NCBI RefSeq assembly: GCF_013294015.1
Contig: NZ_JABSNO010000012.1
Location: 1-64,000, forward strand
DNA length: 64,000 nt
Source of the DNA: Frigoriflavimonas asaccharolytica
Lineage (GTDB): Bacteria; Bacteroidota; Bacteroidia; Flavobacteriales; Weeksellaceae
Direction: 5' to 3'
How positions within the stretch are numbered: the first letter of the stretch is position 1; the number at the start of each line of letters is the position of its first letter. The notes below the pieces were generated by a model. The model saw nothing but the letters and a program-made list of their open reading frames with translations, was not told the origin of the DNA and made no database searches. Made by a program: the position numbers and the translations under genes. This document shows, piece after piece, positions 2,069 to 16,550 of the stretch.

Positions 2069-3250
2069 TTACTTCTCAAAAAAACCGATAGAGCTCCCAA
2101 TCCATATCGCATCTTTCTTGTTAAAATCTACATTCACCATTGCCACTTTCGTCATGCGCACAAGATTGTCCATCAGCGTTGGTGTAGCATCTTCCTCCTT
2201 CCAAAGGAAAAGCATACGGATCTCGGCTTTAGAATATTCACCATTCGTATCCAAAAATAAGGGCTCATAATGAACTTTTCTTTGTAGAATAAAATTTTCT
2301 TTATCCTCAATAGCATCAATAGTTTCCTGCGTAGGATCTAGATTTACCCCACTTCCTGCAAAAGAAAACAAAGGTTTCAATACAAAATTCTTCAAATCTT
2401 CTGTCGCAGGAAAATCGGGTACAAAATAACTCTTCGGTACAGAATCGTGCTCCAGCAGCGGCAATATATATTTAGAAATCTTAAAAAACCAATTCGGATG
2501 CGTGATCCATTTTACCTCCACATCTTCCCGAAAATCAAATTCGGTCACAAGATCTGGTATATTATCAATCTCATCAAAGATCACCCTATTATAAATTCTA
2601 TGGATCGGAATTAATTTCCCCTCATTCTCATAAAACAATTTCTTACCCTGCTTTTTTACTTTCGTCAAACATACCGTTTTGATACCCAAATACTTTTCCG
2701 TCAACGCAAAATCTACAGCAGTTTTCTGTTTCTCTGGATAAATTTCTAACAAGATCACATTCTCAGGATTCTCTTCCCCAACAATCACATCCTTCAAAAA
2801 TTGAATATACTGCGGCTTCGGCATAGAATTCCGAAGATCTTGCAAGAAAGGATACACCTCAGAAATCACCCCTTCATATTCCTCTTGAAAGGCATACAAA
2901 GTAGGGAAGGCTTGCAATTCTATCAGTTGAGGTACAATTTCGCCCGCTTCATTTTTACAAATTCCAAAATCTATCGCTAGAAAATGTGGTTTTGCATTAT
3001 CATTCGGCACCTTACAATTTTCTGGAATGGCTTTCGCAAAAACCTCTTCAGGAATCTTTTTTATTTGTGCTACAATGGTTTCGCAAGCATCGTCTAGTTT
3101 ATTCTTAAAATCTTTAGATAAAAAAATAGGACTCTCAGATAGTCGAAATCCTGCTTCTATACCAGCATTGTCTCTTATTTTATCTTGCGTCAATTGGTAT
3201 TTTTCCTTAGAAAATTCTTCGTTGAATTGTTGTCTGTATTTTTGTATCAT
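2069..3250 (-). CDS. permuted-looking ATP-grasp ligase
   Basis: Predicted 393-residue soluble protein. Residues 216-229 (IHRIYNRVIFDEID) resemble a signature of glutathionylspermidine-synthase-like and circularly permuted ATP-grasp proteins. Residues 291-301 (LKPLFSFAGSG) look like the ATP-grasp lysine and glycine loop, and 322-326 (LQRKV) like the hinge strand. The acidic metal-binding residues are harder to place, perhaps in KAEIRMLFLW (341-350). It would join a carboxylate to an amine using ATP. It is the last gene of the eight-gene cluster, separated from its neighbour by 255 bp, so it may have its own promoter. I rate the ATP-grasp fold as likely and the substrate as unknown. Confidence 0.65.
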   Translation of the reverse strand: MIQKYRQQFNEEFSKEKYQLTQDKIRDNAGIEAGFRLSESPIFLSKDFKNKLDDACETIVAQIKKIPEEVFAKAIPENCKVPNDNAKPHFLAIDFGICKNEAGEIVPQLIELQAFPTLYAFQEEYEGVISEVYPFLQDLRNSMPKPQYIQFLKDVIVGEENPENVILLEIYPEKQKTAVDFALTEKYLGIKTVCLTKVKKQGKKLFYENEGKLIPIHRIYNRVIFDEIDNIPDLVTEFDFREDVEVKWITHPNWFFKISKYILPLLEHDSVPKSYFVPDFPATEDLKNFVLKPLFSFAGSGVNLDPTQETIDAIEDKENFILQRKVHYEPLFLDTNGEYSKAEIRMLFLWKEEDATPTLMDNLVRMTKVAMVNVDFNKKDAIWIGSSIGFFEK

Positions 3251-3505
3251 TCGGTAATAATATTAGTTTTTAATAAAGAAAAGGTTGAAAGAATTTTTAA
3301 GCATAAAGGGAACAAAAGCTAAAGAAGTTAAAACAAATTTAAAAGAGAAAATAAATATTTCATACTTATTTTATCCTAAAATTCATTCTATAAATTCAAT
3401 AATAGTAATCTGCACTTCTCAATTTTTATTTACTTCAAAAATGGCGAATCTTCAATTTGTGCTTAGCATTTTAAATAAAGTTTGATAATGCTCTAAGTGT
3501 AGATT
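3251..3505. other. gap inside the ligase cluster
   Basis: 255 bp of AT-rich sequence upstream of the 2069-3250 gene. A forward frame (3285-3485) is low-complexity and lacks a good start. No hairpin or TAnnTTTG box stands out. It probably contains a promoter for the last ligase gene, which is inference from its size. Confidence 0.3.
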
Positions 3506-4339
3506 TTACGCAGGCACAGCATTATTTTTCATAATATTTTCTGTGGCATGCTGCAGAAATCTTGGTAAAATTTGCTGTTGTGTGAGTACTATTTTATCAT
3601 CATCATTCAAGCGATCTACGGTTTGCAAAAATTTTTCTTTTCCGTATGCTTCTATCATGGCGTCTCTGTTCTTTTTTACCTCCAGATTTTTCATCATCCC
3701 TTCTGGATCAGCTTCTGGATGAAATTGTGTGCCAAAAATTTCTTTAGAAAATTTCACCGCCATCACCGCTCTATCTAAGTGTATGTGTGGTCGCATTTTC
3801 TCTAATGCCATGATCTCCATACCCAATTTTTCAAAACGTGCTTTGTTCGGTTCTACAAATTGATAAGCTCTAGAATCTACTGCATAGAAAGGTTCTGGTA
3901 AATTTTTTAATACAAAATCTTGCTCTCCTTCCACTGTTTTATGCATCGGCATTACCCCAAAAGAATAAGATTTTCTTTTGCAAATATTGCCTAATTTCCA
4001 ATGGATACTCGCAATCTGAAAGGAATGACAGATAAGAAAAGCGAATTTTTTGTCTTCGTTTTCTATGTTGTGATTATAAAGGTCATTCAAAAATTTAGCG
4101 TAGGGTTTTTCCCACGGATGTCCTTGTTTGTGAGGTGTGCCTGGTCCACCAGAAGAGATGAAGATATCAAAATCTTTTACTTCTGGTATTTCATTTTTAA
4201 ATCTTACATCAAATACGTGAATTTCTATATTCTCTTCCGCAATATTTTTATAATGCTCTGCAATTTCTTTTATGTTTCGCATTCCTTGGTTTGCCCTGTT
4301 ATTGTTCATATCCAAGAGTGCAATGTTGATCGTCTTCAT
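3506..4339 (-). CDS. class I glutamine amidotransferase-like protein
   Basis: Predicted 277-residue protein with the class I (triad) glutaminase layout: SSGGPGTP (62-69) near the oxyanion region, a nucleophile Cys104 in FLICHSFQ, and His207 and Glu209 in FGTQFHPEADPE. The cysteine context is C-H-S-F rather than the common G-x-C-x-G, so it may hydrolyse something other than glutamine, for example a gamma-glutamyl product. Family members release ammonia for a partner or cut gamma-glutamyl bonds. It sits 46 bp downstream of the YbdK-like ligase, which suggests it supplies ammonia to, or trims products of, these ligases. A C-terminal extension of about 65 residues follows the triad. Confidence 0.8.
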   Translation of the reverse strand: MKTINIALLDMNNNRANQGMRNIKEIAEHYKNIAEENIEIHVFDVRFKNEIPEVKDFDIFISSGGPGTPHKQGHPWEKPYAKFLNDLYNHNIENEDKKFAFLICHSFQIASIHWKLGNICKRKSYSFGVMPMHKTVEGEQDFVLKNLPEPFYAVDSRAYQFVEPNKARFEKLGMEIMALEKMRPHIHLDRAVMAVKFSKEIFGTQFHPEADPEGMMKNLEVKKNRDAMIEAYGKEKFLQTVDRLNDDDKIVLTQQQILPRFLQHATENIMKNNAVPA

Positions 4340-4385
4340 TTAATAATCTTTTAAGATGGCAAAATTACAAAAATTGAAATTAGAC

Positions 4386-5495
4386 TTAAGATTCTGGTAC
4401 CATTCCATATTCGGTTTCACTAATCATATAATCTACCACAGCTTTCAGATCGCCTGTTTCTTTCAATACCTGCAATTGTCTGTCTGCTCCAGTTCCGCGT
4501 TCCATGATGGTCCAAGCGTAATTGACCTCATCTCTGCAGTCCAATTCGTCTACCACATCATCTATAAAATCTAGAAGTTCTTTTAATAAATCTTTGTAGG
4601 GCACGCTTTCTTCTTTACCAAAATCTATCAGATGAGAATTGATACCATCTTTTGCAGCACGCCATTTATTTTCTTGCAACAATAATCTTCTATAACTTCG
4701 GAAGCTCAAATTTTGTTTGTGAAGCTTGTGAATTTTGGCAACCAAACATTGCATGATTGCAGCCAGACACACGGTTTCATCCAAACGCATGGGCATATCG
4801 CAAATTCTAAATTCTATGGTTGGATAGAAAGGATGTACACGAAGATCCCACCATATTTTTTTGGCATTATCTATCGTTCCTGTTTTCACCAATAGGTTTA
4901 CATAATCATCAAATTCGCCAACACTACTAAAGTAACTCGGAATACCTGTTCTCGGAAATTTAACGAAAACTTGTTGTCTATAAGATTTAAAACCTGTATT
5001 TCTACCTACCCAAAACGGGGAATTTGTAGAGAGCGCAAATACATGCGGCAAGAAATAGCGCATGACATTTTGTATTTTCACACCTTCTTCTCTGCTTGGA
5101 ATTCCAATATGAACATGCAAACCGAAAATTAAATTTCCTCTTGCAACATCTCCCATATCATCTACAATTTTTATGTAGCGTTCTCCTTGCGTAATGGAGT
5201 TTGTTTCCCAATTGGAAAACGGATGTGTGCCACCACCAGAAACGCGAAGGTTTTGATCGTGTGCAGTTTTGATGAGGTGCTTTCTAAGCATGGTTAATTC
5301 TGCTCGTGCTTCTTTGATGTTCCCACAAATACCAGTCTCCATTTCAATCATGGATTCGTGCATTTCATGCTTCAAATTTTCGCTGAGAACTGCTTTTCCA
5401 CCTTCAATAATTTTGGATACATGCGACACCAAATCTCTCGTATCTTTATCAATAATTTGGTATTCTTCTTCTATCCCGATTGTAAATTTATGCAT
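4386..5495 (-). CDS. YbdK/GCS2-type carboxylate-amine ligase
   Basis: Predicted 369-residue enzyme of the glutamate-cysteine ligase type 2 (COG2170) family. Visible marks are the acidic GIEEEYQIID near the N terminus (E9-E11), EMHESMIEMETG (44-55), GGGTHPF (87-93) and LHVHIGIPS (126-134), which provide metal and nucleotide ligands. The enzyme activates a carboxylate, classically the gamma-carboxyl of glutamate, with ATP and joins it to an amine such as cysteine. Length matches YbdK. It stands 77 bp downstream of an ATP-grasp gene and 46 bp upstream of the amidotransferase-like gene. The actual amine is unknown; YbdK-like proteins are often only weak gamma-glutamylcysteine synthetases. Confidence 0.9.
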   Translation of the reverse strand: MHKFTIGIEEEYQIIDKDTRDLVSHVSKIIEGGKAVLSENLKHEMHESMIEMETGICGNIKEARAELTMLRKHLIKTAHDQNLRVSGGGTHPFSNWETNSITQGERYIKIVDDMGDVARGNLIFGLHVHIGIPSREEGVKIQNVMRYFLPHVFALSTNSPFWVGRNTGFKSYRQQVFVKFPRTGIPSYFSSVGEFDDYVNLLVKTGTIDNAKKIWWDLRVHPFYPTIEFRICDMPMRLDETVCLAAIMQCLVAKIHKLHKQNLSFRSYRRLLLQENKWRAAKDGINSHLIDFGKEESVPYKDLLKELLDFIDDVVDELDCRDEVNYAWTIMERGTGADRQLQVLKETGDLKAVVDYMISETEYGMVPES

Positions 5496-5572
5496 AAAAA
5501 ATCATGATTATAAAGTTAAAGTAATTATTTAGCAATCAACATATATTATTGATTGCTAAACAATTATAAATG

Positions 5573-6529
5573 TTACTTAATTGTATTTTTAACGAAGCTT
5601 CCCCAAGAGATATTAGGTTTTCCTGGCTTGTATTCTTTGGCTTTTTCTATCGCAAATTTTGCAGCATGTTCTACCACCCAAGCAAAATTTTCTTCGCCCA
5701 CAGATTTTAAATCTGCATCTGGTGCCGGATTACAAAAATCTATCGCGTAGGGAATTCCATCTTTTACTGCAAATTCTACGGTATTAAAATCATACCCTAA
5801 AGCTTCATTCATCTTAATGGTATAATCATGAATTGTTTTAAGAATATCTTTTAGCTGTTTTCCTTCATATTTAGATTCTGTTACGTATCTTAAATGATGA
5901 GGATTTCTTGGTTCGTAAGGCATAATGTGCACGTGTTTTTTGCCCAAACAATAAACTCTATAGTAATCTTCAAATACAATTTCTTCTTGCATCATCATTA
6001 CCAATTCTCCAGTTTCTTCTAGTTTTTCCCAAAGTTCTTCGGCGTTTTCTACTCTGTAAACGCTTTTCCAACCACCGCCATCATGTGGTTTTATGTAAGC
6101 AGGAAATCCAACATAATTAAAGATATAATCCCAATCCTGCGGAAATTTCAAATTTCTAAAAGATGTTTCTGTCGTGTTTTCTGGCATTGCTTTAGAAGGC
6201 AGAAGCACAGTATTTGGCAAAGGAATTCCCAAAGTTTTCATCAAACAATTGTTGAAGAATTTTTCGTCTGCGCTCCACCAAAAGGGATTGTTCATCACGT
6301 ATGTTCCCATCAAGGCTTCGTTTTTTAGATAAGCTCTGTAAAATGGAACGTCTTGTGAAATTCTATCGATTATTACTGCATATCCATAATCTCCTGCTTG
6401 CTCTAGTTTGTCTATTTGTACTGCTTCTGCAACTACATCTCCTTTTCCTAGTTCATTCACTTTATCTATGAAAGCCCATGGAAATGTGTCTTCCATTCCG
6501 AATAAAATTCCTACTTTTTTTGGTGCCAT
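5573..6529 (-). CDS. ATP-grasp ligase
   Basis: Predicted 318-residue ATP-grasp enzyme. It has an N-terminal pre-ATP region (VGILFGMEDTFPWAFIDKVN), the lysine and glycine loop AYIKPHDGGGWKSVYRV (K147, GGG 151-153), a hinge VMMMQEEI (178-184), and the metal-binding end NTVEFAVKDGIPYAIDFCNP with E252, D264 and N267. These are all the parts needed for activity. Such enzymes form an acyl phosphate and then an amide or thioester. It lies between the esterase (167 bp upstream) and the YbdK-like ligase (77 bp downstream). The acyl and amine substrates cannot be read from the sequence. Confidence 0.88.
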   Translation of the reverse strand: MAPKKVGILFGMEDTFPWAFIDKVNELGKGDVVAEAVQIDKLEQAGDYGYAVIIDRISQDVPFYRAYLKNEALMGTYVMNNPFWWSADEKFFNNCLMKTLGIPLPNTVLLPSKAMPENTTETSFRNLKFPQDWDYIFNYVGFPAYIKPHDGGGWKSVYRVENAEELWEKLEETGELVMMMQEEIVFEDYYRVYCLGKKHVHIMPYEPRNPHHLRYVTESKYEGKQLKDILKTIHDYTIKMNEALGYDFNTVEFAVKDGIPYAIDFCNPAPDADLKSVGEENFAWVVEHAAKFAIEKAKEYKPGKPNISWGSFVKNTIK

Positions 6530-6696
6530 AAATTTTGATTTTTAATTTTTATATTTTTATATTATTTGTCTTTAATCAACTTTTTGATTTTTAATTTTGA
6601 ACGCAGCGCGCGCAAAAGTTTTTTTTAAAAAATCCTTCGTCTTTGTCTCGTAGAGCCACTTCATGTAGCAAAGTTAATGCTGGTAGCAATATTTTT

Positions 6697-7410
6697 TTAA
6701 GAAAAAAATCTCCCCACAAACATTGGGAATACCATTCTCCAAAGTGGCCAATCGTGCCCGATCCATTGTCTTTCGTCATACCAATTGTTGATGCCTTTTG
6801 AATTTAAAATTTGAGCCATTTCTTTGGTTTGCTCTTTACAAATATCTTGGTCTGATGTGCTTAAAACAATATGCATGTGTTTATATTTCCAAGCTTCATC
6901 ATTTTTCACAAATTCTCTCGGACAATTGAAATAAACCAATTCATCATCGTATCCATCCATAAAACTTCTGATCGTAAATGCGCCAGAAAGACAAAATAAA
7001 TGTGAAAATAAATCTGGATATCTAAAAGCTAAATTGGATGCGTGATATCCACCAAAACTTGCTCCTGCAGCACCGATTCTATGTGTTTGATGCGCTTTTT
7101 GAAGATAAGGAATAAACTCCTGAATCATAAATTGCACCCATTTTTCGTAGTTTCTGATGCGATCTGCAGGATGTATATTCTTGTCGTACAAACTATATTT
7201 ATCAATAGTTTGGATGTTGTATAATTTAATTTTCCCCTCATCTACCCATTGTTGCACGCTTTCGTTTAATTTAAAATCAAAATTTTGTGTGTAATCTCCT
7301 TTCGTGGTGGGAAACATGACGATAGGCATACCAAAATGTCCGGTAACTTCTACATCTAAACTCATCCCAAGAATGTGAGAATAAAAATTTGTGTGCTCTA
7401 TTTGTGGCAT
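6697..7410 (-). CDS. esterase-family alpha/beta hydrolase
   Basis: Predicted 237-residue protein of the esterase D-like family (PF00756 type). The nucleophile elbow is GAAGASFGGYH with Ser118; an acid at Asp187 or Asp189 (STSDQD) and His219 (IGHDWPLW) complete the triad. There is no signal peptide, so it should be cytoplasmic. Esterases of this family often sit in ATP-grasp clusters and could release or transfer an acyl or peptidyl product. It is 30 bp downstream of the larger ATP-grasp gene, consistent with one transcript. A small overlapping frame at 6591-6779 is not a gene. Confidence 0.85.
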   Translation of the reverse strand: MPQIEHTNFYSHILGMSLDVEVTGHFGMPIVMFPTTKGDYTQNFDFKLNESVQQWVDEGKIKLYNIQTIDKYSLYDKNIHPADRIRNYEKWVQFMIQEFIPYLQKAHQTHRIGAAGASFGGYHASNLAFRYPDLFSHLFCLSGAFTIRSFMDGYDDELVYFNCPREFVKNDEAWKYKHMHIVLSTSDQDICKEQTKEMAQILNSKGINNWYDERQWIGHDWPLWRMVFPMFVGRFFS

Positions 7411-7440
7411 ATTTTATAGTTTTTTTGTTTTTAATTACTG

Positions 7441-8658
7441 TTAAGCAGTTGGTTTCATTTTGGGTGGCAAAATATTTAAAATATCTTGTGTAATTTTTAC
7501 GGCAGCATCATCCAAACATTTTTGAATATTCTTTTCATCTTTATCTTTGTAAATGATGCCGATGTGATAATCTAAATCTAAAAATTGAGAGACATATTTG
7601 CATTCAAACTGTTTCGTATCTGGCTTTTGCTCTTTTGCTAATGCAATGATTAATCCCGCCGTAAAATCCGTAGAGTCTGCTAAAGAATATTTGGTCTTTT
7701 TTAATAAAGAATCTTCAATTTTTGCCCATTCTCTCCAAATATTAATTCCTGTAGAAGCTTCTACCAAATCTGGTATATGTGCACCGCCAACTCTGGAAGA
7801 AGTCTCTAAAAAGTACCATTTTCCATCTGCTTTTCCACGGATAAACTCTGTATGCGTAGCACCATAAACCAAACCAAATTTTGTTAAAACTTTTTTGTTA
7901 GCTTTTTCTAAGGCAATATATTCTTCAGAATTTTTTTCTAAGGTCTTTGTGCGAAAAACTCCACCTTCGTGCGAAACTTCCATCGGTGGCGAAAGATATC
8001 TGGAAGCAGAGGTGAAGATGATTTCTTTCTCAAAAACCAAACTATCTACATGATAAACATCTCCCGGTTTGAAAGATTCAAGTAAAAATTTGTGTCTTTC
8101 TTCGCCCAATTTTTCTATTGCAGGCCAAAGTTCTTCTACAGAATTTATTTTACTTATTCCACTTGCAGAAGCTTCAGATCTTGGTTTTAGAACCCATGGT
8201 GGAGGATTTTGAGCGGTAAATTCTTCTAATTTTGCATTATTAAAAATAGAAGAAAATTGCGGAACTTCAATTTCATTGTCCAAGGCCATTTGCCGCATTG
8301 CCAATTTATCTCTGAAGTAGCGATGCGTAGTTTGACCCATTCCAGGTATTCTAAAAGTTTCTCTAATAAGAGCTGCTTTTTCTACGTCATAATCGTCTAA
8401 TGCGATTACTGCATCTATTCTGTTATCTTTCATCAAGTGGGAAAAACCTTGTACCAAATGATCTGTATTCCAAACAGAAGGCTCTAATTCTTGCATATAA
8501 TAAACCTCGTCTATTGCATGCCATGGCCATTTTTTATCTTTTAAATTTTCTGATGTAATAAGTATAACTTTATTGCCTAGTTTTTTTATTTCATCCATAA
8601 ATTCGTAGCCTTTGTAGTAACAAGAGATACAAACGAAAGTTTTTTCTGCCATATTCAT
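7441..8658 (-). CDS. ATP-grasp ligase of the L-amino-acid ligase/carnosine-synthase type
   Basis: Predicted 405-residue three-part ATP-grasp enzyme: a Rossmann-like N-terminal third (VCISCYYKGYEF), then HRYFRDKLAMRQMAL (K118), WVLKPRSEASASGISKI (K158 and the loop), FLLESFKPGD, and the metal site HTEFIRG (E271) with YFLETSSRVGG (E285, R289). This pattern is close to amino-acid ligases that make dipeptides such as BacD, and to carnosine synthase. The start was moved from a TTG at 8661 to the ATG at 8658; an ATG at 8652 is also possible. It lies 136 bp downstream of the aminopeptidase. It could form a peptide bond between two amino acids; substrates are unknown. Confidence 0.88.
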   Translation of the reverse strand: MNMAEKTFVCISCYYKGYEFMDEIKKLGNKVILITSENLKDKKWPWHAIDEVYYMQELEPSVWNTDHLVQGFSHLMKDNRIDAVIALDDYDVEKAALIRETFRIPGMGQTTHRYFRDKLAMRQMALDNEIEVPQFSSIFNNAKLEEFTAQNPPPWVLKPRSEASASGISKINSVEELWPAIEKLGEERHKFLLESFKPGDVYHVDSLVFEKEIIFTSASRYLSPPMEVSHEGGVFRTKTLEKNSEEYIALEKANKKVLTKFGLVYGATHTEFIRGKADGKWYFLETSSRVGGAHIPDLVEASTGINIWREWAKIEDSLLKKTKYSLADSTDFTAGLIIALAKEQKPDTKQFECKYVSQFLDLDYHIGIIYKDKDEKNIQKCLDDAAVKITQDILNILPPKMKPTA

Positions 8659-8794
8659 CAATTTTATATAAATGTTGAATTATCAAAAAATTAAAATGAT
8701 TTTTATTAAATAATTATTATCAATATTCTTAAATCTTTTTTAATGTGAAAATTCTATATCAATAATACAATGATTTTCTTTTAAAAACTAATTT

Positions 8795-10219
8795 TCAGCA
8801 ATTTCTTTTAAGAAAATTTAACAAAAGTTGCACGCCATATCCAGTTGCGGCTTTTTCTTTCGCATAATTCACGTTTCCAAAGGCAACACCAGCAATATCT
8901 AAGTGTGCCCAGTTGGTATGTCCTTCTATAAATTGCTCTAAAAACTTACCAGCAATAATGCAATCTCCGATAGGTTTTAACGAAATATTTTTGAAATCCG
9001 CAACATCTGAGGAAATATCTTCTTTCCAAATATCCCACAATGGTAGATTCCATAATCTTTGGTTGGTCTCATTTCCGCAAGAAATTAATTCTTGTATCAA
9101 TGCTTCGTTATTTCCCATCAAAGCGCCACAAGTATCGCCAAACATTCTCACGGAACTTCCCGTAAGTGTCGCCAAATCTATCATCACATCTGTTTTGTAA
9201 TTTTTAGAAAGATACGATAGTCCGTCTGCAAGCGTCATTCTTCCTTCTGCATCTGTGTTCAAAACTTCGATTGTTTTTCCATTGTAGGCTTTTATCACGT
9301 CGCTTGGAAGATAGGCATCTCGAGAAACTGCATTATCCGTGATTGGCAATATTGCGATTAAATTTACAGCTAAATCCATCTCTTTTGCAGCTATTAAAGT
9401 ACCGATAACGGCAGTTGCACCTCCCATGTCAGATTTCATATAGTGCATATTGTCTCCGCCCTTTATGGAAATCCCACCGGTATCAAAAAGGACACATTTA
9501 CCAACCAATCCTATGGTTTTTAAATTTTTAGTGTTGTTTTGTGGTGTGTATTCTATAATTGTAAATGCTGCATCTTTTGCGCTACCTTGGTTTACACTTA
9601 GATAAGCTCCCAAACCTTTTTCTACACATTCTTCTCTGTTGAAAACGGTGTATTTAAAGCCTTTTTCGCTTGATAAATCTTTTAGAAAGCTGCTTATCAA
9701 ATCCGCATTTTTAAGATTGGCAGGTTTGTTCAGCCATTCCATACAAGCAAATTGTCCGTTGCAAAGTGCGCTTGTATTTGCGGAAATCTTATTTAAAATT
9801 TCGGTAGAAAATTTATTGATATTTAATGAAAAGCCATCTTGCCAAAAGGTATGGTCTTTTTTCATCCCATATTGGTAAGTTCCTAGAAACAACCCATCAA
9901 TTAGTGCTGAAAATAGATTTTCATTAATAAATTCTGCTTCGATTTTAGTTTCTACAGCCAAAAAATTTTTCTTTTTACTTTGAGAAAATTGATTCGCTAT
10001 TTTTTGTATTTCGAATGGTTTTAAATCAGAATTTCCAACACCAATTAAATATTGAATTGAATTTTCTTCAGCATTTATATAGATTTCTTTTGCTTTTCCT
10101 TTAAAAAATTGCGCTATGTTTTTAGGGTAATTTTTCTGTTCTAAATTCCAACTTTCCTCTGTGAAAAAACTGAAAATTTGTTGAAAATTTGTCTCGTTTG
10201 TACTTGAAATTTTTATCAT
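8795..10219 (-). CDS. M17 leucyl aminopeptidase-like protein
   Basis: Predicted 474-residue cytosolic metallopeptidase. The M17 signature NTDAEGR is at 321-327, with FDTGGISIKGG from 245 (K253 a metal and substrate ligand) and MKSDMGGATAV from about 262. The N-terminal domain is about 150 residues, as usual. The enzyme removes N-terminal residues from peptides using two metals. The ATG at 10219-10217 was preferred over an upstream one that overlaps the preceding gene; this leaves a 13-bp gap and a normal N terminus (MIKISSTNET). Its place in the ligase cluster suggests a role with the peptide product, but it could be general housekeeping. Confidence 0.92.
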   Translation of the reverse strand: MIKISSTNETNFQQIFSFFTEESWNLEQKNYPKNIAQFFKGKAKEIYINAEENSIQYLIGVGNSDLKPFEIQKIANQFSQSKKKNFLAVETKIEAEFINENLFSALIDGLFLGTYQYGMKKDHTFWQDGFSLNINKFSTEILNKISANTSALCNGQFACMEWLNKPANLKNADLISSFLKDLSSEKGFKYTVFNREECVEKGLGAYLSVNQGSAKDAAFTIIEYTPQNNTKNLKTIGLVGKCVLFDTGGISIKGGDNMHYMKSDMGGATAVIGTLIAAKEMDLAVNLIAILPITDNAVSRDAYLPSDVIKAYNGKTIEVLNTDAEGRMTLADGLSYLSKNYKTDVMIDLATLTGSSVRMFGDTCGALMGNNEALIQELISCGNETNQRLWNLPLWDIWKEDISSDVADFKNISLKPIGDCIIAGKFLEQFIEGHTNWAHLDIAGVAFGNVNYAKEKAATGYGVQLLLNFLKRNC

Positions 10220-10232
10220 TATTTTTTTATTT

Positions 10233-11357
10233 TTAATCGTTTGCTTCGTAAATTTGTATAGGTGCGGTTTCAATCGGATTTTCACTATTGTCGTAGTAGA
10301 GCCATTCTACAGCTCGTGGAAATTCTTGCGACCAATAAAATTCGTTGTGTGTACCTTCCGGATTGATGTTTGTTTTGAACTCAAAAGAGAAAATATTTTG
10401 CTCATCCCATTTTACTAGTTGTTTTTCAAACATTTTAATTCTCTTCACCATTTTTGAGCCTTCTTTTTCGCCGCCATAGATGTATGCTTTAATTTTGTAA
10501 GGTTTGCGAAAACTCATCATCGGAAAATTATTGTTGGGTTCTATCCAAAGTGAGGGCGAAAAAATCATCAACTTACTGTAGACTTCTGGGTAGAGAAAAC
10601 CACTATAAATACTGATTAAAGCGCCCAAAGAACTTCCGCCAATTCCTGTATTTTCTCTATCTTTTTTTGTTCTATAAACAGAATCTACATAAGGTTTCAA
10701 AGTATCTGTGATGAACCGAATATATTTTTTGCCTTCAGATCCGCTTGCAACCTTGTCATTATCAAATATGTATTCATTTATGCGGTCTTCGCTACCATGT
10801 TCTACGGCAATTACGATAACATCTCCACGAGAATATTCTGCAAGAATAGATAGCTTTTTGTCTATTTCCCAATTACCAAAAGGCGAACCTTCGTTAAATA
10901 AATTTTGAGCATCTTGTAAATATAAAACAGGATATCTTTTTTCAGAGCTGTAATAATCATACGGTAGAAGTGCCCAAATTTTGCGATACCTATCTAATTG
11001 TGGAATGTAAAAGTTTTCCGAAATAACTTCTACAACTGGATTGAATTCATCTTTAAATGGGCCCCAATTCAATCTCCATAATTCCACTACACTATCGCAA
11101 GATTTTTTGTTTTTTGCTATTTTTCTGTTGATGGTGATGTTTCCAAATCTATCTAGTTCCACATTTTCCCAACCAGCTTTTGTGAATTTAAATTCTATTT
11201 TTTCTGGCAATAAGTCGTCATCAATTTCGATACTATAACTCTCGTCGTTATTTTTTGTTAATTGAAATGCTGCGTCTTTTGGGTTCCACTTATTAAAATT
11301 TCCAGTGATATAAACGGGACGTTCATCTTGATCGATGGTTGTTAAATTAAAAATCAT
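10233..11357 (-). CDS. esterase with N-terminal CBM48/E-set-like domain
   Basis: Predicted 374-residue protein. Residues 1-80 look like an early-set carbohydrate-binding (CBM20/48-like) domain: PVYITGNFNKWNP (14-26) and IEFKFTKAGWENVELD (54-69) mimic the glycogen-binding fold. Residues about 110-360 are an esterase D or enterochelin-esterase-like alpha/beta hydrolase with the elbow GGSSLG (Ser243) and a late histidine in GTHNEFYW. No signal peptide is seen. It is the first gene of the eight-gene leftward cluster and faces glgB across 187 bp. Binding to glycogen is possible from the domain and the neighbour, but not shown. Confidence 0.82.
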   Translation of the reverse strand: MIFNLTTIDQDERPVYITGNFNKWNPKDAAFQLTKNNDESYSIEIDDDLLPEKIEFKFTKAGWENVELDRFGNITINRKIAKNKKSCDSVVELWRLNWGPFKDEFNPVVEVISENFYIPQLDRYRKIWALLPYDYYSSEKRYPVLYLQDAQNLFNEGSPFGNWEIDKKLSILAEYSRGDVIVIAVEHGSEDRINEYIFDNDKVASGSEGKKYIRFITDTLKPYVDSVYRTKKDRENTGIGGSSLGALISIYSGFLYPEVYSKLMIFSPSLWIEPNNNFPMMSFRKPYKIKAYIYGGEKEGSKMVKRIKMFEKQLVKWDEQNIFSFEFKTNINPEGTHNEFYWSQEFPRAVEWLYYDNSENPIETAPIQIYEAND

Positions 11358-11544: not shown

Positions 11545-13794
11545 ATGCAAAAAATTCAACCTTTCTCACTTTTTACAGAGGAAGATGTTTATCTTTTTCG
11601 GGAAGGCAAACATTACCGTTTATATGAAAAATTTGGATCTCATTCTGCGAAAGTAGATGGTATAGAGGGGATTTATTTTGCAGTTTGGGCACCAAACGCT
11701 GTGCAAGTTTCTGTAATTGGGGATTTTAATAATTGGCACTCCGAAGCGCATATTCTTTTTCCAAGATGGGACAAGAGTGGAATTTGGGAGGGTTTTATAC
11801 CCAATTTAGTATGGGGAACTTTGTACAAATATGGCATTAGAACTACAAAAGCTGAACTTTTAGAAAAAAGTGATCCTTTTGGTTTAAGTTTTGAGCAAAA
11901 TAGACAAGCAGCATCAATGGTTTCTACCAATTGGTTTGAGTGGAAAGATACCAATTGGATGGCAAATCGTTTCAAAAAAAATACGTTAAAAGCGCCACTT
12001 TCCGTTTATGAATTACATCTTGGCTCTTGGATGCGAGATCTAGCACTGCCAGAAGTATTTTTAAATTATAAAGAAATTGCAAAGAAATTAATTCCTTATA
12101 TAAAGGAAATGGGATTCACGCATGTAGAATTTATGCCTGTAATGGAACATCCTTATGAACCAAGTTGGGGATATCAAATAACAGGATTTTTTGCTGCAAA
12201 CTCACGTTTTGGATCGCCCCAAGATTTAATGTTTTTGATTGATGAATTGCATCAAAATGAAATTGGCGTATTTCTAGATTGGGTTCCTTCACATTTTCCG
12301 GGGGATGCCAATGGTTTGCATTATTTTGATGGTTCTTTTTTATATGAACATGAAGATCCAAGAAAAGGCTATCATCCAGAATGGAATTCTCATATCTTTA
12401 ATTATGGAAGGCCGGAAGTAAAATCTTTTTTAATTTCGAACGCACTATTTTGGCTAGATAGATATCACGCAGACGGACTTCGAGTTGATGCTGTGACTTC
12501 CATGTTGCATCTAGACTATGCGAGAGAACAAGGACAATGGGAACCAAATATATTTGGTGGTAACGTGAACTTGGAAGCAGAAGAATTTTTAAAAGATTTT
12601 AATATTGCAGTATATAAAGAATTTCCAGATGTGATAACTATTGCTGAAGAAAGTTCGGATTTTCCAAATTTGACAAAACCCGTGCACGATGGTGGAGTTG
12701 GTTTTGGGATGAAGTGGATGATGGGATGGATGCACGACACGCTGAAATATTTTAAACAAGAAATAAACGATAGAAAATACCATCATCACAAATTGACTTT
12801 TGCATCCATGTATCAATTTAATGAAAATTACATGATGCCTCTTTCTCATGATGAAGTTGTGCACGGAAAAGCAAGTATGATCTATAAAATGCCAGGAGAT
12901 GAATGGCAAAAGTTTGCAAATTTGCGCGCTTTGTATGTTTATATGTTCACAAATCCTGGCGCGAAATTGCTTTTTATGGGTAATGAATTTGGGCAAACAA
13001 ATGAATGGAACTTCGCAGCTTCATTGAATTGGAATTTATTAGAACATCCTGTTCATAATGGTTTGCAATTATTAATAAAAGATTTAAACAAGCTATACAA
13101 AACAGAAACTGCACTATTTGAAAATCAATTTTCGCAAGATGGTTTTGAATGGGTGGAAGCCAATGATGAAGAGAAATCTACCTATGTCTACCTAAGAAAA
13201 GGGAATTCTGAAGATGATGTATTGATGATGGTTTTAAACCTAACATCAGAAGTTTTTGATTATAAAATAGGAGTTGATGAAAATACAACTTGGAATGTTA
13301 TTCTCAATTCCGACGACAAAAAATATGCTGGTAGCGGGGTAGAGGCAGATTTATTTTTAGAAGAAAATGAGGAATGGATGAATCGAAAAAATTCTATTTC
13401 TTTAAAGCTACCACCACTTTGCGGTTTGGTTTTAAAAATGAAAAGAAAAGCACTACCAAAAAAAGTCGCTTCTAGAGTGCGAAAACCAGCCGCCGTAAAA
13501 CCAGTAAAAAAAATTACAAAAAAAACAGATTCTATTTCTGGTGAAGTTGTGGATATAACTTCAGCATTAGTTGAAAAGCAAAAACCTGTAAGGAAAGCGA
13601 CCATTACTAAAAAACCAGCGCTAAAAGTGCCTACAAAGCCTAGAACTTTGAAGTCGGAACCTATCGCAAAACCACTTACGAAAGCTCCCGCACTCAAAAA
13701 TACAATCGCTGTTACTTCAAAATTAGTAGAAAAAAATGCAGCAACAACTTCAAAAAATTCTTCGACTGCCCAAAATGCTAAAAAGAAACTATAA
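11545..13794 (+). CDS. 1,4-alpha-glucan branching enzyme with basic C-terminal tail
   Basis: Predicted 749-residue GH13 branching enzyme, which makes alpha-1,6 branches in glycogen. The order is an N-terminal E-set domain (GIYFAVWAPNAVQVSVIGDF), a catalytic barrel with GLRVDAV (nucleophile D315), IAEES (acid/base E368) and LSHDEVVHG (D436), and a C-terminal beta domain to about 633. After that comes a tail of about 115 residues made mainly of Lys, Pro, Ala, Thr and Ser (KALPKKVASRVRKPAAVKPV and on) that other branching enzymes lack. It opens the glg operon with glgA 19 bp downstream. A near-consensus box TATATTCG lies about 35 bp upstream, but no clear -33 element. Confidence 0.96.
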   Translation: MQKIQPFSLFTEEDVYLFREGKHYRLYEKFGSHSAKVDGIEGIYFAVWAPNAVQVSVIGDFNNWHSEAHILFPRWDKSGIWEGFIPNLVWGTLYKYGIRTTKAELLEKSDPFGLSFEQNRQAASMVSTNWFEWKDTNWMANRFKKNTLKAPLSVYELHLGSWMRDLALPEVFLNYKEIAKKLIPYIKEMGFTHVEFMPVMEHPYEPSWGYQITGFFAANSRFGSPQDLMFLIDELHQNEIGVFLDWVPSHFPGDANGLHYFDGSFLYEHEDPRKGYHPEWNSHIFNYGRPEVKSFLISNALFWLDRYHADGLRVDAVTSMLHLDYAREQGQWEPNIFGGNVNLEAEEFLKDFNIAVYKEFPDVITIAEESSDFPNLTKPVHDGGVGFGMKWMMGWMHDTLKYFKQEINDRKYHHHKLTFASMYQFNENYMMPLSHDEVVHGKASMIYKMPGDEWQKFANLRALYVYMFTNPGAKLLFMGNEFGQTNEWNFAASLNWNLLEHPVHNGLQLLIKDLNKLYKTETALFENQFSQDGFEWVEANDEEKSTYVYLRKGNSEDDVLMMVLNLTSEVFDYKIGVDENTTWNVILNSDDKKYAGSGVEADLFLEENEEWMNRKNSISLKLPPLCGLVLKMKRKALPKKVASRVRKPAAVKPVKKITKKTDSISGEVVDITSALVEKQKPVRKATITKKPALKVPTKPRTLKSEPIAKPLTKAPALKNTIAVTSKLVEKNAATTSKNSSTAQNAKKKL

Positions 13795-13813
13795 CCAAAA
13801 ATTAAAGTAAAAT

Positions 13814-15220
13814 ATGAATATTTTTCACCTTTCTATGGAATGTTATCCTGTCGCGAAAGTGGGCGGTTTAGCAGATGTTGTAGGAGCATTGCCTAAATAT
13901 CAAAATAAAATAAAAGGTATAAAAGCAAGTGTTGTAATGCCTTGGTATAATAAAAAATTCATTTACGAAAACGAATTTGAAACTGTTTTTGATGGTTTCA
14001 TACATCAAGGTGAAGACATGCTGCAAGTGATAGTTTACAAAGAATTGAAAAGTACTTTGGGATTTGATTTGTATTTGGTGAAGATTCCAGGATTATTGGA
14101 TCGTGAAAATCCTTATGGCTACAAAGACGAAAGTTATCAGTTTCTAGCTTTTCAACATGGTGTATTGCATTGGTTGAGTGCGATGCAGATTCGTCCAGAT
14201 GTTTTGCATTGTCATGATTATCATACAGGATTAGTCCCATTCATGATACAGAATTGCCCCTCTTTTGAATTTTTGAAAGGTGTAAAAACTATTGGTACCA
14301 TACATAATGGAGAATATCAAGGACAAATGCGTTGGGATATGGCTAAATATATGCCGTGGTTTGATAGCTATCAATGGGGACTTTTAGATTGGGACGGGTA
14401 CATCAACCCATTAGCAGCAATGATGAAATGTTGCTCGGCTTTCAATGCTGTTTCTCAAGGATATATGGATGAACTCTACCAAAATCTACGAGGTTTGGAA
14501 AGTTTGGTACAAGCTGAACATGCGAAAGCATTTGGAATAATTAATGGAATAGATACAGAAGTTTGGGATCCGGAAACAGACGCTTACCTGGAGCATCATT
14601 ACACAGTAAAAACAGCGGGTGAAGGAAAATTTAAAAATAAAAAGGCAATATGTGAAGAATATAATTTGAACCCAGATTTACCTTTGGTAGGTTTTATCGG
14701 CAGATTTGCAGGTGAAAAAGGAGCAGATCTATTGCCAGATATCGTTTGGAAAAGCATCCAACAAACTTATGGAGCATTAAATATTATCATTCTCGGTAGT
14801 GGAGAAACGCATGTAGAAAATAGATTGTTAGAATTAAATTATACGTACACAAATTTAGGATTAGAATTAGGATATAGAGAACCGCTTTCTCATCAAATAT
14901 ATGCAGGCGCAGATTTTTTGATAATGCCATCTCGTGTAGAACCTTGTGGATTAAACCAAATGTATGCAATGCGATATGGAACCGTGCCAATTGTAAGATA
15001 TATTGGTGGTTTGAAGGATACTGTAGAAGATATCTCTACTGGTGGCGCAGGAATTTTGTTTAATGATGCAACTGTAGATGATGCTGTAAATGCAATCCAT
15101 CGCGCTCTAAGTATTTACCATCATCCAGGTTTGATGGATGAATTAATAAATAGTAACATGAATTTTAATTTTTCTTGGGTAAAATCTGCTGAAAATTATG
15201 TAAATTTATATCAACAATAA
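13814..15220 (+). CDS. glycogen synthase (ADP-glucose type)
   Basis: Predicted 468-residue GT5 enzyme that extends alpha-1,4 glucan chains from ADP-glucose. The ADP-glucose site KVGGLAD is at residues 15-21 (K15), and the C-terminal donor region SRVEPCGLNQMYAMRYGTVP is clear, with the acidic retaining-GT residue in VEPCGL. Length matches bacterial GlgA. It lies 19 bp after glgB and 61 bp before glgC, and all three are probably one transcript supplying and using ADP-glucose. Confidence 0.96.
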   Translation: MNIFHLSMECYPVAKVGGLADVVGALPKYQNKIKGIKASVVMPWYNKKFIYENEFETVFDGFIHQGEDMLQVIVYKELKSTLGFDLYLVKIPGLLDRENPYGYKDESYQFLAFQHGVLHWLSAMQIRPDVLHCHDYHTGLVPFMIQNCPSFEFLKGVKTIGTIHNGEYQGQMRWDMAKYMPWFDSYQWGLLDWDGYINPLAAMMKCCSAFNAVSQGYMDELYQNLRGLESLVQAEHAKAFGIINGIDTEVWDPETDAYLEHHYTVKTAGEGKFKNKKAICEEYNLNPDLPLVGFIGRFAGEKGADLLPDIVWKSIQQTYGALNIIILGSGETHVENRLLELNYTYTNLGLELGYREPLSHQIYAGADFLIMPSRVEPCGLNQMYAMRYGTVPIVRYIGGLKDTVEDISTGGAGILFNDATVDDAVNAIHRALSIYHHPGLMDELINSNMNFNFSWVKSAENYVNLYQQ

Positions 15221-15281
15221 TTTAATACCTTGTTCAATAATTAATGAATCAAGAAATAAACATTTAAATAAACTAAAATAT

Positions 15282-16550
15282 ATGAGAGCCAACGTAATTT
15301 CTATAGTTTTAGGTGGAGGTAAAGGAAGCAGACTTTTTCCACTCACATATTCTCGATCAAAACCAGCAGTTCCTATTGCAGGTAAATATAGATTGGTAGA
15401 CATTCCAATTTCCAATTGTTTGAATGCAGGATATAATAAAATTATGGTATTGACGCAGTACAACTCTGCATCCTTAAATTCACACATAAAAAATGCCTAT
15501 CATTTTGATATTTTCAGCAAAGGATTTGTAGATATTCTTGCAGCAGAGCAAAATGTAGGTAACGATAAATGGTACCAAGGTACAGCAGATGCAGTTCGCC
15601 AATCCATGAAACATCTGGAAAAATATGATTACGATTATGTTTTAATTCTTTCTGGTGATCAGTTATATCAGATGGATTATAGAGAATTGATTGATTTTCA
15701 TCAAAAAAATAATGGAGATGTAACGATTGCAACCATACCCGTAAATGCAAAAGATGCTACAGGATTTGGAATTTTAAAATCTGATGATGCAAATGTAATC
15801 ACATCATTTATAGAAAAGCCAGATGCAGTAGAATTACAAAATTGGAAATCCGAAACCTCTGAAAAAAGCAAAGCAAATGGCAAGGATTATCTTGCATCCA
15901 TGGGGATTTATGTATTCAGTAAATCTGTATTGGAGAAGATGTTTGAAGAAGATCCAGGAGACGATTTTGGTGGAGAATTAATACCAAATGGTATCGATAA
16001 ATATAAGACATTAAGTTTTCAATTTGATGGATATTGGACAGACATCGGTACTATAGAATCTTTCTACGAAGCAAACCTAGACCTTTGCCAAGATTTTCCG
16101 AAATTTAATTTATTCAGCAGTTCGCCCATATTCACAAGAGCAAGAATGCTTCCTCCTTCAAAAGTAAACGGATCTTATGTGAAAAATGCTGTTTTTGGAG
16201 AAGGATGTATTATAATGGCGGATAAAATAGAAAATTCTATTATAGGAAATAGAACGAGGATAGATAAAGGAACAACAATTGTAAATTCCTATATAATGGG
16301 TGCAGATTATTATCAAAAAACACAATCCATAGTAGATAATGATAAAGCCGGAAAACCAAATATGGGAATTGGAAAATATTGCTACATAGATAAAGCGATT
16401 ATAGACAAGAACTGTTACATTGGAAATGATGTAAAAATAATAGGCGGTAAGCATCTCCCAGATGGTGATTTTGAAAATTATTCTATAAAAGATGGTATCG
16501 TAGTAGTGCAAAAAGGAGCTACTATCAAGCCTGGAACAGTTATTAGTTAA
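15282..16550 (+). CDS. glucose-1-phosphate adenylyltransferase
   Basis: Predicted 422-residue enzyme that makes ADP-glucose from glucose-1-phosphate and ATP, the committed step for glycogen. The nucleotidyltransferase signature VLGGGKGSRLFPLT is at residues 9-22, followed by SKPAVPIAGKYRLVDIPISN. The middle carries FIEKPD and GIYVFSK, and the C-terminal third is a left-handed beta-helix domain with the ADP-glucose pyrophosphorylase pattern, used for allostery and tetramer contacts. It ends the glg operon; a hairpin terminator follows at 16575. Confidence 0.96.
   Translation: MRANVISIVLGGGKGSRLFPLTYSRSKPAVPIAGKYRLVDIPISNCLNAGYNKIMVLTQYNSASLNSHIKNAYHFDIFSKGFVDILAAEQNVGNDKWYQGTADAVRQSMKHLEKYDYDYVLILSGDQLYQMDYRELIDFHQKNNGDVTIATIPVNAKDATGFGILKSDDANVITSFIEKPDAVELQNWKSETSEKSKANGKDYLASMGIYVFSKSVLEKMFEEDPGDDFGGELIPNGIDKYKTLSFQFDGYWTDIGTIESFYEANLDLCQDFPKFNLFSSSPIFTRARMLPPSKVNGSYVKNAVFGEGCIIMADKIENSIIGNRTRIDKGTTIVNSYIMGADYYQKTQSIVDNDKAGKPNMGIGKYCYIDKAIIDKNCYIGNDVKIIGGKHLPDGDFENYSIKDGIVVVQKGATIKPGTVIS

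Follow-up and report, generated by a model that had tools for sequence, protein, structure and literature searches.

Gene neighbourhoods of amidoligases, in which ATP-grasp ligases, GCS2 ligases and peptidases are grouped, were reportedly described by Iyer et al. in 2009 in Mol Biosyst, with the same kind of inference as is drawn here. In the E-64 pathway, a short pseudopeptide is assembled by stand-alone amide ligases independently of nonribosomal peptide synthetases (NRPS), and the dapdiamides are also made by stand-alone ligases in an NRPS-independent way, according to PMC12568646. Here we describe a cluster of eight genes from the bacterium Frigoriflavimonas asaccharolytica, found in a window of 64,000 nucleotides (the whole stretch of DNA analysed; positions 1 to 64,000 of contig NZ_JABSNO010000012.1). 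The genes are named g1 (the gene at 2069) to g8 (the gene at 10233), with g8 to g1 as the order of transcription. On balance we favour the view that these genes specify an NRPS-independent pathway dedicated to making and taking apart a small amide-linked molecule, along the lines of the metabolism of glutathione and glutathionylspermidine.

Conserved order and modular structure of the cluster

The eight open reading frames (ORFs) all lie on the minus strand and fill positions 2069-11357 of the window, in agreement with a preliminary description of the same DNA. The domain classes given there also hold, as six proteins are recovered by Pfam or NCBIfam, and g4 and g1 are assigned to the ATP-grasp class by their folds, with an additional weak match of g4 to the RimK family. 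Four stand-alone ligases are present in the unit, namely the ATP-grasps g1, g4 and g6 and the YbdK-type GCS2 enzyme g3, which is the set listed previously. Among the eight proteins, g3 alone reached an NCBIfam cut-off, the family being that of a general carboxylate-amine ligase. Neither Pfam nor NCBIfam revealed any NRPS domain in the eight proteins, the remaining genome not having been searched for NRPS genes.

Using g4 as the query, the best 80 of 262 relatives were taken as near-relative loci, which come from Kaistella, Chryseobacterium, Elizabethkingia, Halpernia, Soonwooa and other Weeksellaceae. A taxonomy check confirmed Kaistella and Soonwooa as Weeksellaceae of the phylum Bacteroidota, and we take the Chryseobacterium, Elizabethkingia and Halpernia loci to belong to the same family. 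All eight genes were found in the same order in 71 of the 80 loci, a number that becomes 70 with stricter ORF recovery, when locus L053 also lacks g7. Because the order is kept in 71 loci, the grouping is more than chance. The preliminary description had proposed conservation of the grouping in relatives as a check, and the case that the genes are not kept together did not occur. The gene g8 is missing in eight loci, seven from Kaistella or Chryseobacterium and one (L021) in which it is absent because the contig ends there, and a single near locus (L040) is without g1. The smallest gap at each junction ranges from -8 to 33 nucleotides (71-80 loci); therefore, no conserved precursor or carrier gene fits between the eight genes, consistent with the previous statement that there is no precursor peptide. 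A precursor gene beside the ATP-grasps, as in the graspetide class of ribosomally synthesized and post-translationally modified peptides, finds no inter-gene room in all relatives, the flanks not having been scanned for small ORFs.

Analysis of a wider sample of 395 genomes of the phylum Bacteroidota revealed that the unit is composed of two modules, g5-g4-g3-g2-g1 and g8-g7-g6, which are joined in Weeksellaceae. The single eight-gene unit of the preliminary description is thus revised to two modules; g5-g4-g3-g2-g1 forms the wider core, and g8-g7-g6 is mostly separate outside this family. A strong g4 match (E <1e-40) was found in 134 genomes, and neighbourhood stretches were taken for 79 of them, with ORFs called at a minimum of 90 residues; five loci in which g4 was not among the called ORFs were left out, and 74 were scored. 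Of these, 54 have at least one of g1, g2, g3, g5, the ligase c9 described below and an M29 peptidase on the strand of g4 and no more than 6 kb from it, and 24 of 32 families have a core partner close to g4. Within this distance the most frequent partners are g3 (39 loci), g1 (31), g5 (28) and g2 (27), followed by c9 (8), M29 (5), g6 (3) and g7 (1). The second group occurs apart from the core as g8-g7-g6 in locus L178 (genome G064), as g7-g6 in L184 and as g8-g6 in L188 and L189. In L094, g8-g7-g6 lies just past g1 on the opposite strand.

Co-occurrence of the gene families across Bacteroidota

In addition to the strong g4 matches, g1 was found in 114 of the 395 genomes and strong g3 in 117, a count that rises to 129 when weaker matches are included. 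At E up to 1e-30, g2 was found in 86 genomes, and at E up to 1e-60, g6 was found in 80. Weak g4 matches in three genomes (G017, G092 and G211) and a g1 fragment in G047 were excluded, as were 12 weaker g3 matches from the strong g3 count. The families accompany each other closely: g1 occurs with g4 in 110 of 114 genomes and with strong g3 in 109 of 114, g4 and strong g3 are found together in 113 genomes, and g1, g3 and g4 in 105. Likewise, g2 occurs with g4 in 84 of 86 genomes, and g6 with g4 in 80 of 80. When counted by family label (the 55 families being no more than the highest label encountered), g4 is also held by all 26 families with g1, all 28 with strong g3, all 20 with g2 and all 23 with g6. 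Judged from the genomes with g4, the core reaches well beyond flavobacteria.

The association does not depend on linkage. In genome G101, 26 kb separate g4 from g3, and another contig carries g1, so that co-occurrence survives scattering. In one family (f2), seven carrier genomes possess g1, g2 and g3, six of them also g4, and 19 negative genomes are devoid of all four genes. The kept order, together with the co-occurrence of even unlinked genes, supports that the families behave as one pathway. Copies of g4 with an in-frame stop were seen in genomes G365, G113, G204 and G272, one of them also split in two; these are either decayed genes or assembly errors.

Fold classes of the ligases and hydrolases

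For g1 (2069..3250, minus strand), no Pfam match above the cut-off was obtained, including to PF03738 (GSP_synth). The structural model of g1 has a predicted local distance difference test score (pLDDT) of 88.9, with 34 sequences in the alignment. Comparison of the model by VIA-align against YgiC yields a Z score of 26.1, with a root mean square deviation of 3.2 over 339 residues, followed by glutathionylspermidine synthetase (25.1), YjfC (25.0), homoglutathione synthetase (24.2) and human glutathione synthetase (23.6). The matches to YgiC, GspS and human GSS span 339-371 aligned residues over residues 1-393, and the series of Z scores goes down to 19.1 and then falls to 11.7 and 7.9. From this model, g1 is predicted to be an ATP-grasp enzyme of the glutathione/glutathionylspermidine-synthetase fold over its whole length. 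In the Foldseek search the human and yeast glutathione synthetases lead, whereas YgiC takes the eleventh place. Because the two rankings differ, the fold does not choose between a glutathione synthetase and a glutathionylspermidine synthetase function. At the sequence level the match to YgiC is marginal (E 0.047), and a search of the Protein Data Bank gave no match to a glutathione synthetase. The glycine-rich loop around Lys292 reads SFAGSG in g1 versus SREGAN in YgiC, with the acidic residue lost.

The ligase g4 (5573..6529, minus strand), the hub of the core module, has no Pfam match and a weak one to the RimK family TIGR00768 in NCBIfam (26.9 bits against a cut-off of 143.4). Its model is moderate (pLDDT 64.5, 13 sequences); in Foldseek the D-alanine ligases lead, with LysX/ArgX and RimK included among the 50 matches listed, all of which, by their titles, we take to be ATP-grasps. 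The weak family match and the model together suggest that g4 is an ATP-grasp of the RimK/D-Ala ligase type. The third ATP-grasp, g6 (7441..8661, minus strand, with an ATG at 8652), matches ATP-grasp_4 in Pfam and is of the L-amino acid ligase type, its profile matching the L-amino acid ligase 4wd3 (1.3e-23), BL00235 (3vot, 7.5e-15) and BacD. The YbdK/GCS2 carboxylate-amine ligase g3 (4386..5495, minus strand; PF04107, GCS2 214 bits) exceeds the cut-offs of PRK13515 (532.7 bits against 371) and TIGR02050 (306.2 against 176.4) in NCBIfam, and its profile matches YbdK (1r8g) at 9.6e-67. An R-T-G stretch of g3 agrees with plant glutamate-cysteine ligases, whereas the E. coli and Salmonella-type YbdK have D-N-G.

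In some lineages g4 is adjoined by c9, a type 2 circularly permuted ATP-grasp, which separates g4 from g2 in seven mapped loci. It was found in nine genomes, and g1 is missing from all nine, so that c9 appears to replace g1 there. Direct kinship of g1, c9 and g4 was rejected, the profile probabilities being 1.6% (g1-c9), 1.2% (g4-c9) and 0.2% (g4-g1); the tie of g1 to c9 is solely via 3n6x, to which c9 matches in sequence (7.9e-9) and g1 in the fold of its model (Z 22.4).

Among the hydrolases, g2 (3506..4339, minus strand) is a class I glutamine amidotransferase (GATase)-like protein (PF00117, 35.9 bits), whose Cys104, His207 and Glu209 are invariant in 27 of 27 sequences and presumably form the Cys-His-Glu triad of class I GATases. 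We regard g2 as a candidate gamma-glutamyl peptidase. An M29 peptidase is present at the position of g2 in five loci (L119, L121, L123, L126 and L145; one copy was checked by Pfam), and the genomes of these loci are absent from the g2 list, so that here the one hydrolase has apparently been exchanged for the other. The second peptidase, g7 (8795..10285, minus strand), is an M17 leucyl-type aminopeptidase (PF00883, 335.8 bits) containing the sequence NTDAEGR, which we take to be the M17 motif; its ORF is listed with a GTG start, and the ATG at 10219 is the likelier one. Two esterases complete the set. The small esterase g5 (6697..7410, minus strand; PF00756) belongs to a family that is identified as esterases by profile, with Ser118, Asp189 and His219, presumably the catalytic triad, each conserved in 90% or more of the 25 sequences compared. 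One g5 copy (L127, 10464-11189) has a glycine at the position of the nucleophile serine (GGFGLG) and is perhaps inactive. The other esterase, g8 (10233..11357, minus strand), matches PF00756 in Pfam, and its N-terminal stretch, for which Pfam gave no match, resembles by eye a glycogen-binding domain of the CBM48 type.

Scanning for regulatory signals gave background numbers of sigma-70 promoters (40 observed, 41.3 expected) and terminators (4 observed, 5.5 expected). A hairpin of 20 pairs (5522..5566, minus strand) lies in the g4-g3 gap just upstream of the g3 start and is possibly a processing or attenuation site, the scan as a whole being at background. The Bacteroidota-type promoter pattern was not found before g8, and occurs once inside g8 and once near 1251. 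Just downstream of g1, an ORF on the minus strand at 1472-1771 matches the ParE toxin family (PF05016, 24.9 bits), and an ORF on the plus strand at 91-384 resembles the end of a transposase by eye. PADLOC gave no match for any of the eight proteins, and a defence system was rejected on this ground.

Proposed pathway and comparison with known systems

Based on the fold classes, we propose a scheme for the pathway, the product of which is probably a short gamma-glutamyl-headed peptide or peptidyl-amine. The GCS2 enzyme g3 would form the first bond, probably via the gamma-carboxylate of glutamate or a similar acid. A second residue may then be added by g4, and g1 may cap the carboxylate end of the growing chain, either with one more amino acid or with an amine, for example a polyamine. 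Where present, g6 would make a dipeptide unit or add one residue. Hydrolysis of the product or its conjugates might be performed by g2 (the M29 peptidase in some lineages) and g7, in the manner of a gamma-glutamyl peptidase and an aminopeptidase, and the esterases g5 and g8 probably hydrolyse acyl or thioester adducts. In plants, a gamma-glutamyl peptidase of the GATase type is paired with an M17 enzyme. The cluster would accordingly combine synthesis and turnover, because glutathione and the conjugate of it with spermidine are products of the GCS2 and g1 fold classes, and the hydrolases would remove the gamma-glutamyl group and then the N-terminal residue. The preliminary description had suggested a small gamma-glutamyl or alpha-linked oligopeptide with release by the esterases and editing by the aminopeptidase or amidotransferase. 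This reading is partly supported, in that the genes behave as one pathway with four ligases and no precursor gene between them; the type of linkage, the release and the editing are possibilities.

Several observations weigh against such a pathway. The two esterases fit a peptide route loosely, and the chemistry of g1 may differ from that of YgiC because its loop is without the acidic residue. No core partner is close by in 20 of the 74 scored g4 loci. Moreover, g1 is missing in 24 of the 134 g4 genomes, g4 in 4 of the 114 g1 genomes, and 15 of the 129 genomes with any g3 match have no g4; in locus L172 (genome G154), g1, g2 and g3 stand together with no g4 or g5 on the stretch. The Fisher values overstate the significance of the co-occurrence because the genomes are not independent samples, and the counts, which stand without an unrelated patchy-gene control, do not separate transfer from inheritance.

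Other explanations have to be considered for the same genes. A product containing a thiol or a polyamine seems rather unlikely, although a GCS2 ligase, the g1 fold, a candidate gamma-glutamyl hydrolase and an M17 enzyme in one cluster speak in its favour, as does the naming of YgiC and YjfC of E. coli as peptidylpolyamine synthetases in PMC12568646. It is also favoured by the finding that PF03738 has no match anywhere in the genome of the window (E up to 0.001). As for a prokaryotic GshB-type synthetase of the glutathione pathway, the profile PF02955 gave one partial match (27.9 bits against a cut-off of 23, 93 of 175 positions) in an 888-residue frame on contig C5. Against it, genomes have the bacillithiol synthase BshC whether or not they carry the cluster, which argues against simple replacement of a missing thiol. 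BshC was found in the genome of the window and in all 16 genomes of family f2 that were tried, of which seven carry the cluster (in G154 partially) and nine lack it, and replacement of a missing thiol was ruled out by this result. A thiol product is possible and not required. A survey predicts bacillithiol in Bacteroidetes, as stated in PMC6282198. If the ligases instead acted on proteins or carrier proteins, adding a peptide tag as in RimK or LysW-type systems, the resemblance of g4 to RimK and LysX/ArgX, which act on proteins, would be explained. We judge this unlikely, as no carrier gene fits the gaps in all relatives, with the neighbourhoods covered for ORFs of at least 90 residues and the search confined to linked targets.

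The invariant triad residues of the class I GATase-type hydrolase beside a GCS2 ligase would also suit a gamma-glutamylation route for the use or detoxification of amines or amino acids, in which ligases add a protecting glutamate that g2 removes at the end. The Puu and isopropylamine routes are precedents for gamma-glutamylation. However, four ligases exceed the need of such a route, and besides the core families no neighbour, among recurrent neighbours annotated only in part, exceeds 9 occurrences in the 84 neighbourhoods; c7 and c8, with 9 each, look by eye like an ABC-transporter ATPase and a sigma factor, respectively. This route too is improbable. Divergent to g8, glgB-glgA-glgC occupy 11545-16550 on the plus strand, and their proximity is perhaps a link to glycogen metabolism or chance. 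Unrelated housekeeping neighbours, for example a set tied to glycogen through these genes, would be consistent with glgB, glgA and glgC adjoining the cluster here as well as in L005, L027 and L048, and with glgA or glgC also being present near the g4 or g6 locus in L115, L150, L152 and L161 (L150 and L152 from one genus) among 104 stretches scanned. But 96 of the 104 stretches have no glg gene, including two from the same family as the window, L015 (Elizabethkingia) and L090, and the order kept in 71 of 80 loci and the co-occurrence of unlinked families stand against it. The housekeeping explanation is largely refuted and has a very small probability.

For the proposed pathway of synthesis and turnover, if true, about one third of the Bacteroidota genomes sampled (the 134 of 395 with g4) hold a small-molecule pathway with both synthesis and breakdown enzymes. 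We put forward, as a tentative and somewhat doubtful extension, that about a third of the sampled Bacteroidota might make a glutathione- or glutathionylspermidine-like metabolite beside bacillithiol, using up to four sequential stand-alone ligases and recycling hydrolases of its own, and that this pathway might have been kept after scattering and swaps of single steps. The co-occurrence of scattered genes would then provide a short list of enzymes to assay. The predicted fold of g1 would narrow the product to peptides or peptidyl-amines, so that a direct comparison of deletion strains could reveal the metabolite.

The titles and abstract beginnings of the open papers searched, a set that did not cover Iyer et al. 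2009, contained no description of the cluster, and no paper treating YbdK together with ATP-grasp enzymes was found in the open literature. In their available portions, PMC8939145 and PMC2922099 mention no such cluster. One paper with both GCS2 and ATP-grasp was found, on PafA/Dop (PMC7947786). The logic of the pathway, with NRPS-independent stand-alone ligases, is known, and this gene set is apparently undescribed in the open papers searched. Similar to the L-amino acid ligases (4wd3, BL00235 and BacD), g6 shows profile matches to this class; the other seven genes do not seem to be of the type found in bacilysin synthesis. Cp1B, the fungal ligase of the E-64 pathway, shares the fold of g1 (9cjn, Z 21.9) with 13% identity, whereas the oxygenase and the adenylating amide synthetase of the E-64 pathway are not among the eight genes by Pfam and NCBIfam. 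Glutathionylspermidine synthetase, YgiC and YjfC are the top VIA-align matches of g1, but g1 lies outside GSP_synth, its loop has no acidic residue, and no amidase domain was found by Pfam. As in glutathione biosynthesis, a GCS2-fold ligase and an ATP-grasp of the glutathione-synthetase fold are present in one unit, and the R-T-G stretch of g3 is that of the plant ligases; unlike that pathway, g1 has no sequence match to its synthetases in the Protein Data Bank, and the cluster carries two further ATP-grasp ligases.

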